From assembly GCA_020852855.1 (NCBI GenBank), contig JADZAA010000024.1:1-59787 (forward strand): 59,787 nucleotides of DNA, written 5' to 3'. How positions within the stretch are numbered: the first letter of the stretch is position 1; each line of letters starts with the position of its first letter. The notes below the pieces were generated by a model that did not search any database, was not told where the DNA came from, and saw only the letters and a list, made by a program, of their open reading frames with translations. Below are positions 33,218 to 37,465 of the stretch, piece after piece. A program made the position numbers and the translations under genes. Source of the DNA: Bacteroidota bacterium (lineage in GTDB: Bacteria; Bacteroidota; Ignavibacteria; Kapaibacteriales; UBA961).

Positions 33218-33874
33218 CTATTTAAGCCGCGTTCCGTCCGCTTTTATATATCGGAAGCGATAATATCCTAATTCGGTTTTCGTATTAGGTTGCTCGGGGG
33301 CATCTTTGTAAATACTCAGAAACTGCACCTTGTAGTATTTATTGCTTCGCGAGCGCAATACGACGGTTTTATTAGGCTTAAATGTGCAGGCGTGATTTGG
33401 CGGCCCTGAATAGATAAAAATCGTATTGGGATATTGTAAAGTTTTGAATGCACGTCCGGCGGAAGAAGTATCGTCGCTAAGGAACAAGGATTCCTGCGGA
33501 ACTACGCTTAATTGGTCAAAAATACTGTCTATAATTGCGACTTTTGTTTTTCCGTTTGGATTTACCGTGCCGGAATTGAAATAAATTGGTCCGGTATTCA
33601 AAAACACATTAATAAAGTTACCAATACCGGAAGCAGTTGTATCATAAGGTAAATACCTTAATTTAACGTCCCAAATATCTGTATTGCTCTGCGAAGCGGG
33701 AATAATTGAATCAAGGTCAAATGAATAGTAAAGCCAACCATCTAAGGAATCCGGTTGTATATTAACTTTTAGAATTGGTGTTAGTGTTGTTGGGGGTTGT
33801 GTCGAAGTTGGTTCTTCCGAGCAAGCGGAAAGAAGCAATACACAAATCAATGCAGTTGAAACGTAGTATTTCAT
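33218..33874 (-). CDS. HmuY-like lipoprotein
   Basis: LLLSACSEE lipobox; SNTDIWDVKLRY; LRSRSNKYYKVQFLSIYKDA...GYYRFRYIKADGTRLK resembles HmuY-family C-terminal strands. Confidence 0.65.
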   Translation of the reverse strand: MKYYVSTALICVLLLSACSEEPTSTQPPTTLTPILKVNIQPDSLDGWLYYSFDLDSIIPASQSNTDIWDVKLRYLPYDTTASGIGNFINVFLNTGPIYFNSGTVNPNGKTKVAIIDSIFDQLSVVPQESLFLSDDTSSAGRAFKTLQYPNTIFIYSGPPNHACTFKPNKTVVLRSRSNKYYKVQFLSIYKDAPEQPNTKTELGYYRFRYIKADGTRLK

Positions 33875-34035: not shown

Positions 34036-34611
34036 TTATTGATTGGCTGTGATTCTGTTTTTCCGAAGCCCTCTGAAAAAAACAAAAAAAGCATATACGT
34101 ACAATGTCGAGCCTATAATAATCATCAGTTGTCCGGTCTGCCTTTGCTGCTCGATGGTGAAAGCACTGCACAGCAATAAATCGAAAACAAGCAGTACGCC
34201 GCCCGATGCCGTAATCATGGCGGCCGTCATGCCGAGAAATATAATCTTAATTTCAAGAATCGCGTTTCTTAATGCCGGAACCACAAAAAATCCGGCCGTG
34301 AGCATATTTATATGCATTACTCTGTTAAACGATGTATCTATGACCGATAAATCAACAGAGCGAGGCAACATCCAGAAAATCAAAGACGACATAATAAACA
34401 CAAGAGTCGCTATTCTCCAAGGAGCATCTAAGGTGAGTTTTTTGGAGAAGCGGTGACCGGCAATAATGCCTAAGCCGAACATGGCAGGCAACTGTAATAT
34501 TTGGTGCCGCGGCATAGTTTCCGATAACCATTCGTTTAACGGAAAAGAAATTAGTGCGGCCGCTCCCAAAATTAATGAAAGCGTAATTATATCGTTTGAT
34601 TTTTTAAGCAC
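34036..34611 (-). CDS. Small multi-TM protein, orf1 of the NOR/SenC cluster
   Basis: About 6 TM segments; conserved-looking SETMPRHQILQLPAMFGLGIIAGH; overlaps the end of the SCO1-like gene. Confidence 0.55.
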   Translation of the reverse strand: MLKKSNDIITLSLILGAAALISFPLNEWLSETMPRHQILQLPAMFGLGIIAGHRFSKKLTLDAPWRIATLVFIMSSLIFWMLPRSVDLSVIDTSFNRVMHINMLTAGFFVVPALRNAILEIKIIFLGMTAAMITASGGVLLVFDLLLCSAFTIEQQRQTGQLMIIIGSTLYVYAFFVFFRGLRKNRITANQ

Positions 34612-35216
34612 GCGGTTATTTGTTCAACGATGGATTTGTCCGATTCTCGGGCGGGGTCAAAAACTCTGACTATCTTATTGTCCGGTGCGATAAGGAACAA
34701 GTAAACGGAATGATTTGTTATGTTGGTAGCCGGATTAGTGTATTTCCATATTCCTGCGTTGTGAAGAAAGCGGTCGAATCTTTCTTGGTCGGATTGGTAC
34801 GGCAAAGCAAAAGACCAACCGCTTATATCTTTGCCGAAATGCTCGCGATAGCTTCTGATTTTTCTTATATCGTCGTTTTTTAAATCAAAACTCAAAGTTA
34901 CAAACTCTAATCGCGAATATGCAACAGAAGAGTCGAAAGAGTGATAAATATTTTCCAGCCTGTTGTTAACTTTATGACATACAGAGGGGCAGTCCAGATA
35001 TACGAAATTAAGCAGTATGTATTTGCCTTTATCTTTTAAGCTAAAGGTATTGCCGTTATGGTCAATCATTTGCAAATCGGGAAATGCTCTCGGAATCTCG
35101 CCGGCTGTATCGAGCGTGTACGAAAAAACCGTAAAAGACGAGAATCCGAGAGTCCATTTCCATAGTATTGCCGAACAAATTGCCAAAGCAATTACAGGCA
35201 CAAGGATTTTTTTCAT
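34587..35216 (-). CDS. SCO1/SenC-family copper chaperone
   Basis: LKDKGKYILLNFVYLDCPSVCHKVNNRLENIY (CPSVC), VTLSFDLKNDDIRKIRSYREHFG, NHSVYLFLIAPDNKIVRVFDP. Confidence 0.9.
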   Translation of the reverse strand: MKKILVPVIALAICSAILWKWTLGFSSFTVFSYTLDTAGEIPRAFPDLQMIDHNGNTFSLKDKGKYILLNFVYLDCPSVCHKVNNRLENIYHSFDSSVAYSRLEFVTLSFDLKNDDIRKIRSYREHFGKDISGWSFALPYQSDQERFDRFLHNAGIWKYTNPATNITNHSVYLFLIAPDNKIVRVFDPARESDKSIVEQITACLKNQTI

Positions 35217-35272
35217 TTCCGCTTGCTTTTCGTATATCAGAACTGTCCGTATCCGTTCAATATATGCGATAA

Positions 35273-36748
35273 TTACAAAGTTTCTCTTTTGTCCGCGCCA
35301 AGTCTGAAAATTATCGAGGCGTACATTGTAAGCAGGCCTACAAGAATCAATACTATAAATATTGCTGCAATATATGCAAGTAAAGCTCCTGTGTCATGAG
35401 TAGATGCTATCGGGCTGGACGCATAGTCCGCATATCTTCTCGGTATGCTGTTCAAACCGCCCATATAGAACATTGACAGAAATCCGGCAGAGCCGGTAAT
35501 GAATAACCAAAGGCCGATTTTCGCAGGTTTATTTCTTTCCTGCTCTGCTTTGGAATGGGTTATGTAGAATAAAAATCCAAGAATGAACAATACAACTCCG
35601 CACAGCATATATGTATGGAAGTGTGCCGGCACCCACATGGTGTTATGCAATATTTTGTTGACTGCAATAGCCGAATCAACTACGGCGGCAAATCCTCCGA
35701 TTGCCCAGCCTGCAACGCCTAACAAAAAGGCTGTCGGAATAATCCCCCACTTGGTTTTAGAATGATAGAATTGGGCAATGATGCCGAACATGGTAATTGC
35801 CGATGCCGGAACGGAGCTCGAAAACGACGCGATTTGCCCAAAATAATTAAATATCATAGGCTGTGCAAAATCCATATACAAGTGGTGGAAATATGCGAAC
35901 AAAATGAAGAAGAACGTACAGTTCCACGAGTACACCAACACTTTGTTTGTTTTCCATTCACGCCCCGTAAATTCGGGCAAAAGCTCATATACCCAGCCGA
36001 GACAGCAATATAAGGTTATATTAACTAAAGTATGCCCGAAGAAGAACACGTAATTTTTAAGAAGCAACGGGTCAAACGATAGCGACGGTTCAAAATATTT
36101 CAGAAGCAGAAGAAGCAGGAATACTGCACCTATTAAAAACGACATTACGCCGGCTATCAGGCTTATTGTAGTTATCATCGCTATGGGCGGAACTTCGCGT
36201 TTGACCTCTTTTTTCCCCAGATATTGCCAACCGAGTAAATTAAACGCTCCGTCGTATTCCTTTGCCAGGGCAGAAACTATATGCGAGCTGCCTATTATCC
36301 AAGCAACTCCAAGAATAATCAGCGATATAATAGCCATTCCGTTCGACCATTCTTCCCAACTTGTGCCCACAAAAGGCAGAGGATACAGAAGATACCAGCC
36401 CGGTGCGTAATTTCCTATTAAAGTGGCAACAGTCAGGCCAATAACGCCTGCCAGCGTAAGAGCGAAAACAAAATAGCCCATTCCAAGACTGAGTTTTGTA
36501 TATCGTGTGCCGATTAAATACCATAATCCGGCAAAAGACATACTGAATAATACGCCGGCCATACCCAAGCCGTGCAAAGTCATTATAGCATAAAAAGTAG
36601 TTGGTTGCATTGCTATAATTTCGCCTTGATTAAGGCGCATCAACAAGCCTAACGCAATCAACACGGGAAATAAGACAAGGAATGTGATGCTCCAAGCAAC
36701 AACGAATTTTCTTTGTCCTTTTTGCTCTTCAAAACTTAACTGTATCAT
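35273..36748 (-). CDS. norS: Heme-copper oxidoreductase subunit I, putative sNOR-type nitric oxide reductase
   Basis: LHGLGMAGVLF, FFFGHTLVNITLYCCLGWVYELLPEF, LFAYFHHLYMDFAQP, MWVPAHFHTYMLCGVV; His ligands retained, Tyr of GHPxVY replaced by Asn. Confidence 0.75.
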   Translation of the reverse strand: MIQLSFEEQKGQRKFVVAWSITFLVLFPVLIALGLLMRLNQGEIIAMQPTTFYAIMTLHGLGMAGVLFSMSFAGLWYLIGTRYTKLSLGMGYFVFALTLAGVIGLTVATLIGNYAPGWYLLYPLPFVGTSWEEWSNGMAIISLIILGVAWIIGSSHIVSALAKEYDGAFNLLGWQYLGKKEVKREVPPIAMITTISLIAGVMSFLIGAVFLLLLLLKYFEPSLSFDPLLLKNYVFFFGHTLVNITLYCCLGWVYELLPEFTGREWKTNKVLVYSWNCTFFFILFAYFHHLYMDFAQPMIFNYFGQIASFSSSVPASAITMFGIIAQFYHSKTKWGIIPTAFLLGVAGWAIGGFAAVVDSAIAVNKILHNTMWVPAHFHTYMLCGVVLFILGFLFYITHSKAEQERNKPAKIGLWLFITGSAGFLSMFYMGGLNSIPRRYADYASSPIASTHDTGALLAYIAAIFIVLILVGLLTMYASIIFRLGADKRETL

Positions 36749-36883
36749 AAATTTATTTTTGGTTTTATTGTTTGAGAAATTAAAAAAACAGACCTAAATA
36801 CCTTTGGTAAACGGTTACGCATATAGAAGCAATTTAACACTAAAGCACCGAATTGCCGCTACGAACAGCCCCGCATTAATATA

Positions 36884-37465
36884 TTATTCCACGTGAATCG
36901 TAGCGAACATTCCGGCGTGCAATAAGCCGCAATATTCCAAGCAGAATACGTGATAATCACCCTTTTCGGCAAATGTATAATTAAGTCTGTTTTTATATTC
37001 CGGCATAGCCTGAGTTTGAGCGAGCAGAACTCCCTTGGCGTCGTATATTGCAAAGTTGTGATTTACGTCTTGTGAAGTTACCACAAATTGTATTTGCTTG
37101 TTTACGGGAACAGAAATGTCAGGCGTGCCTTCAAGCATATCGGGCTTAACGTTAGGTTCACCGTCCGTCATTTTCCATGCCCACTGCATAGCTACTACGG
37201 TAATGGTTCTATCGGGCTTATCGTGGAATTGCGGATACGGCAATAAACGCAGAGTAAACAACAAGGATATCACAACGCACGATATTAATCCTATCATATA
37301 TCTGCCGCGTATTTTATACACCTTATTTTTTGCGGACGTTTTATCCTCGTCCACCGATGAAGTAGTCATCAAAAAGACTACGACGGAAATTACAAGTGCG
37401 GTTGCTATCAAAGAAATAATGGCAGCCGTTGATTGTATGGTAAGAAATGTTGTTGATTGTAGCAT
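36884..37465 (-). CDS. norY: Heme-copper oxidoreductase subunit II with CuA site
   Basis: Start refined to 37465 (MLQSTTFLT); TM hairpin; VVAMQWAWKM; SQDVNHNFAIYD; CuA motif FCLEYCGLLHAGM. Confidence 0.85.
   Translation of the reverse strand: MLQSTTFLTIQSTAAIISLIATALVISVVVFLMTTSSVDEDKTSAKNKVYKIRGRYMIGLISCVVISLLFTLRLLPYPQFHDKPDRTITVVAMQWAWKMTDGEPNVKPDMLEGTPDISVPVNKQIQFVVTSQDVNHNFAIYDAKGVLLAQTQAMPEYKNRLNYTFAEKGDYHVFCLEYCGLLHAGMFATIHVE

Follow-up and report, generated by a model that had tools for sequence, protein, structure and literature searches.

A four-gene block in the window (the whole 59,787-nt stretch of DNA analyzed here) most likely represents an operon of the sNOR type (norS-norY-senC-orf1), the product of which would convert 2 NO to N2O, a reading to which we assign a probability of roughly 0.8. 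Its membership in the sNOR group is supported by phylogeny, gene order, and active-site residues. The group is already known, albeit poorly characterized, and the window adds a copy from an uncultured Kapabacteria-like bacterium. Whether sNOR acts on NO or on O2 is a question in the field; the residue pattern across phyla, together with the NO-stress genes adjoining some of the relatives, argues for NO and points to testable candidates, among them the compact subunit I of the Bacteroidota-rich subclade and orf1 as a candidate CuB assembly factor. Because standard annotation assigns such loci to cytochrome oxidases, the part that uncultured Bacteroidota play in NO and N2O turnover can be mistaken. 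In KEGG, bNOR and sNOR alike go under the label of cytochrome c oxidase (PMC11388526), and NCBIfam offers no fitting model for the locus, the best matches, CtaD and CoxB, being far under cut-off (subunit II scores 83.6 bits against CoxB TIGR02866, under the cut-off of that model).

Gene calls and catalytic residues

The initial annotation had proposed a minus-strand block encoding subunit II, subunit I, a SCO/SenC protein, and orf1, and the corresponding open reading frames were recovered (Table 1); the last two genes, said to overlap, share 25 bp (34587-34611). Subunit II consists of two N-terminal TM helices, visible in the sequence as two hydrophobic segments, followed by a CuA cupredoxin domain. 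In line with the proposed CuA site, the C...C...H..M pattern is present in the window protein and in 89/89 examined subunit II matches, and the remaining CuA His lies in DVNHNF, upstream of the motif CLEYCGLLHAGM. Most of the clade's SCO homologues carry the CxxxC motif. Downstream, orf1 is followed by a gene (33218-33874 of the window) for a putative lipoprotein that matches HmuY weakly, below the cut-off (E 1.7e-4).

Table 1. Features of the sNOR-type locus, in window coordinates
Feature	Coordinates	Strand	Details and basis
Subunit II (NorS-type)	36884..37465	-	193 aa from ATG; COX2 PF00116 1e-9
CuA ligand motif CLEYCGLLHAGM (C...C...H..M) in subunit II	36908..36943	-	sequence
Subunit I (NorY-type), heme-copper catalytic	35273..36748	-	491 aa; COX1 PF00115 4e-54
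Helix VI GH..VN: CuB ligand His239 and Asn243 replacing the cross-linking Tyr	36020..36034	-	alignment
Helix VII CuB ligands His288-His289, without Tyr at -6	35882..35887	-	alignment
Helix X HFH, high-spin and low-spin heme ligands	35615..35623	-	alignment
SCO1/SenC copper chaperone, CPSVC motif	34587..35216	-	209 aa; PF02630 7e-13
orf1, six-helix membrane protein	34036..34611	-	191 aa, GTG start

The catalytic residues were compared in an alignment of 116 subunit I sequences (89 sNOR-like, 17 A-type, 9 B-type, and one Thermus plasmid protein). All six heme/CuB histidines are kept in the window protein, as had been claimed; among the sNOR-like rows, His239 and His288 are each present in 88/89 and His289 in 89/89, and H376, F377, and H378 are invariant. 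In the alignment to solved aa3 oxidases, GHTLVN pairs residue for residue with GHPEVY. The claimed Tyr-to-Asn replacement in helix VI extends well beyond the window copy, with Asn243 in 88/89 homologues from many phyla (Thr in one degenerate copy) versus Tyr in 26/26 aligned A/B-type oxidases, and thus is not a matter of chance. Asn is also the residue assigned to sNOR at the helix VI Tyr site (PMC8756737 Table A4); the aligned Thermus plasmid protein has Gln at position 243, the published eNOR residue (PMC8756737). Tyr247, Tyr254, and Tyr380 are invariant in sNOR-like subunit I, a point that weighs against the NO reductase reading; Tyr254 is common to the B-type oxidases.

The Tyr of C-family oxidases is supplied by helix VII, and in two CcoN sequences it lies six residues ahead of the His-His pair. 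At this position, checked as an alternative source of a cross-linkable Tyr, the sNOR-like rows have V/I/L in 88/89 and a gap in one, and never Tyr. The column that we take to be equivalent to ba3 Tyr244 is hydrophobic in all sNOR-like rows and Tyr in the B-type rows. Other residues of the window protein are B-like (D293, Y254, T319, N369, and W372), and Y254 and T/S319 are kept in the sNOR-like rows, in a group for which the absence of a proton channel is predicted. The AlphaFold model of subunit I (pLDDT 86.5, pTM 0.90) has A- and B-type heme-copper oxidases alike as its closest folds, with TM scores (query) of 0.75-0.83 at ~20% identity.

The strongest competing explanation is that the enzyme reduces O2 with high affinity in spite of the missing helix VI Tyr, NO reduction being a side reaction. 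It draws on CuA and CuB-type ligands as in oxidases, on a B-type-like center, and on the 2.7- to 10.8-fold upregulation of the sNOR genes of N. europaea under O2 limitation, for which a high-affinity oxidase was proposed (PMC6967387). We consider it unlikely, given that the Tyr of every aligned A/B-type oxidase occurs in no homologue of the window clade and that the C-family Tyr position is empty as well. Loss of the Tyr correlates with NO reduction, which falls short of proof.

Some relatives carry altered subunit I genes. The sNOR of Ca. Parvibacillus calidus (L046:7989-9479) reads FFGRTLVN, with the CuB ligand His239 replaced by Arg (codon CGC); a sequencing error may account for this, or the enzyme may be inactive. 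In the order-mate G018, the gene (L011:1456-2892) is broken by one in-frame TAG.

Phylogenetic placement and known counterparts

In three trees, assembled without named Nitrosomonas NorY, bNOR, gNOR, and nNOR sequences, the window subunit I falls into a fully supported clade without any Tyr-bearing oxidase, so that the placement among O2-reducing oxidases that had been checked for was not observed. As for the B-family origin suggested in the initial annotation, sNOR forms its own clade, and an AU test (p = 0.50) neither favored nor excluded a grouping with the B-type oxidases. The ammonia-oxidizer anchor was obtained by seeking AMO genes in 399 genomes from the order of a Burkholderiales relative, of which 12 were positive; eight AMO-positive genomes were searched with the sNOR profile, and two carry sNOR. 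These two and Ruegeria pomeroyi, listed under its former genus name, Silicibacter, among published sNOR (PMC8756737), group with the window in a clade with 100/100 support. All three have the order II-I-SCO-orf1, as in the window, which bears out the norSY-senC-orf1 gene content claimed in the initial annotation and matches the norS-norY-senC-orf1 order published for Nitrosomonas (PMC4940428). The sNOR of Nitrosomonas/Nitrosospira and R. pomeroyi also share the Asn and the CuA subunit II with the window, although in Ruegeria the operon is followed by a formate/nitrite transporter and in the window it is not. The window subunit I is ~33-35% identical to the ammonia-oxidizer and Ruegeria sequences and up to 70% identical to those of Bacteroidota MAGs. 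Its place is in a Bacteroidota-rich sNOR subclade, patchily distributed and sister to the ammonia-oxidizer branch, rather than in that branch itself.

Among described systems, the 'type II qCuANOR' of B. azotoformans/Geobacillus (cbaB2-cbaA2-senC2-cbaC2), compared by description alone, has the same gene order as the window, a subunit I of ~490 aa, a subunit II with two TM helices, and Asn in place of Tyr (PMC3475470). The bNOR/CuANOR type I of B. azotoformans resembles the window in its CuA feeding, Asn for Tyr, SenC linkage, and a multi-helix protein (PMC3475470), and the purified CuA-NOR of this bacterium, with its Tyr-to-Asn replacement, reduces NO, as shown biochemically (PMC3475470). That the window encodes an enzyme of this type rather than sNOR is nevertheless very improbable: the type I subunit I is longer, at ~568 aa with 13 helices (PMC3475470), compared to 491 aa in the window; a single TM helix is present in the type I subunit II, which is accompanied by an additional 46-aa peptide, whereas the window protein has two TM segments; and the window groups with the AMO-bearing genomes, in a tree without a bNOR sequence. 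Thermus ba3 and B-type O2 reductases share with the window the fold, the six His, CuA, and several B-like residues, but possess the Tyr, and the window-type subunit I lies outside their clade.

The sNOR-type subunit I was detected in 10/61 genomes searched and in 1/14 of the host's family (the other 13 were without it), and the window sequence is nested in the tree among Chitinophagales/Saprospiraceae copies. This patchy occurrence, combined with the tree, suggests that the window sNOR was acquired by horizontal transfer. A decaying or non-functional acquired copy, which the patchiness, the nested position, and the lower GC content of the locus (41.5% vs 45.4% for the window) could indicate, is just as improbable as the bNOR assignment, with all four frames open, every ligand kept, and an unremarkable GC content (13th percentile within the window).

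Gene neighborhoods and copper assembly

Besides the ammonia-oxidizer branch, the trees contain two large groups that differ in operon content. In the subclade of the window, SCO and orf1 accompany 43/45 loci; in the other, they were found in 0/43 loci at the score used, with a few weak SCO matches and some short contigs. In 11 copies from the sister subclade (L083, L085, L093, L098, L102, L103, L104, L107, L109, L110, and L116), an N-terminal cytochrome c domain with CxxCH precedes the CuA domain of subunit II (confirmed by Pfam in 3/3 tested), a fusion that supports cytochrome c as the electron donor. No SCO or orf1 was detected in these fused operons at the score used.

Genes adjoining at least five loci, as descriptive counts over sNOR loci alone, scored without a matched oxidase-locus control, encode Rrf2 regulators, DUF2249/ScdA_N/hemerythrin or DUF1858-DUF2249 proteins, FeS assembly proteins, and formate/nitrite transporters; most of the Rrf2 regulators near sNOR have three Cys (13 loci). 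For instance, the relative with 70% identity (L037) is followed by genes for a DUF2249-ScdA_N-hemerythrin protein, a DUF1858-DUF2249 protein, a three-Cys Rrf2 regulator, and an FeS-assembly protein. The presence of ScdA/RIC, DUF2249, and Cys-motif Rrf2 genes, that is, NO-stress genes, beside some of the relatives argues for NO reduction and weighs against the O2 reductase explanation. No NO-stress gene directly adjoins the operon of the window itself.

In Pfam, the window orf1 matches DUF1404 (3e-5) and Caa3_CtaG (1.5e-4) under the cut-offs, and its homologues match these families at E<=0.01 in 16/31 and 12/31 cases, respectively. The AlphaFold model (pLDDT 96) comprises six long helices, and a fold search with it returned no significant solved relative. 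Met33 and Cys148 are invariant among the homologues, and Met81 is almost so. The resemblance to DUF1404/Caa3_CtaG suggests that orf1 is a candidate CuB assembly factor, with a presumed role in copper delivery. A match of orf1 to a CRISPR model (E = 0.06) was discarded as chance.

Sphingobacteriales bacterium 39-19 encodes an sNOR-like subunit I (L062:7863-9440) with Asn243 replaced by Thr, His288 by Gln, and Asp293 by Asn. The heme ligands are kept, CuA is intact, and this is the sole sNOR-type copy found in the genome. No SCO or orf1 was detected beside it; their joint absence with that of the CuB ligand His288, in this single MAG, fits a link of orf1/SCO to copper loading.

Proposed mechanism and role in the host

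In the mechanism that we envisage, electrons from reduced cytochrome c, or from a different periplasmic donor, would enter at CuA of subunit II, from where they would reach the low-spin heme of subunit I and then the heme/CuB center, which presumably couples 2 NO to N2O; the substrate and the rates are extrapolated. With Asn243 in place of the cross-linked Tyr, O2 splitting would lose an additional source of an electron and a proton, one that the two-electron NO reaction could do without. Since the active site thus lacks the Tyr needed for O2 reduction, the enzyme most likely converts toxic NO to N2O. Copper for both CuA and CuB may be supplied by SCO and orf1. We found in the literature consulted no purified sNOR and no direct demonstration of NO reductase activity for the reference sNOR enzymes.

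The host genome (2.8 Mb, 99% complete) carries three COX1-family genes, encoding an aa3-type oxidase, the sNOR of the window, and a qNOR. The last of these is full-length (L003:1354-3729, contig 27; best match 3ayf, E 7e-159), so that two kinds of NO reductase stand side by side in this genome. The aa3-type oxidase already present is a further point against sNOR serving as an O2 reductase, and the qNOR already present implies that sNOR could serve another purpose.

It is possible, at well under even odds, that the subclade of the window is mainly a stand-alone NO scavenger of N2O reducers without NirK/NirS, with orf1 a dedicated CtaG-like CuB loader traveling with SCO, and with the sister subclade lacking the pair and partly fused to cytochrome c.

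The host encodes both NosZ and ScdA_N; neither NirK nor NirS was found in the genome, and NrfA was represented by a below cut-off match alone. Given NosZ and qNOR without NirK/NirS, the sNOR of the window would most likely remove external NO and pass N2O to NosZ. The gene set fits the 'terminator' class (nosZ without nir), which is common in Bacteroidota (PMC12569097).

Loss of the Tyr is also seen in the eNOR-like Thermus plasmid proteins (L123 and L124), which, like the window protein, have an adjoining subunit II gene, but carry Gln rather than Asn and branch with the B-type oxidases. In these Thermus thermophilus proteins (L124:3252-4937 and L123:3126-5000), Lys takes the place of the second His of HFH, and genes for an Rrf2 regulator and for a protein with DUF542 lie alongside; this may be an NO reductase in which the ligand of the low-spin heme has changed.
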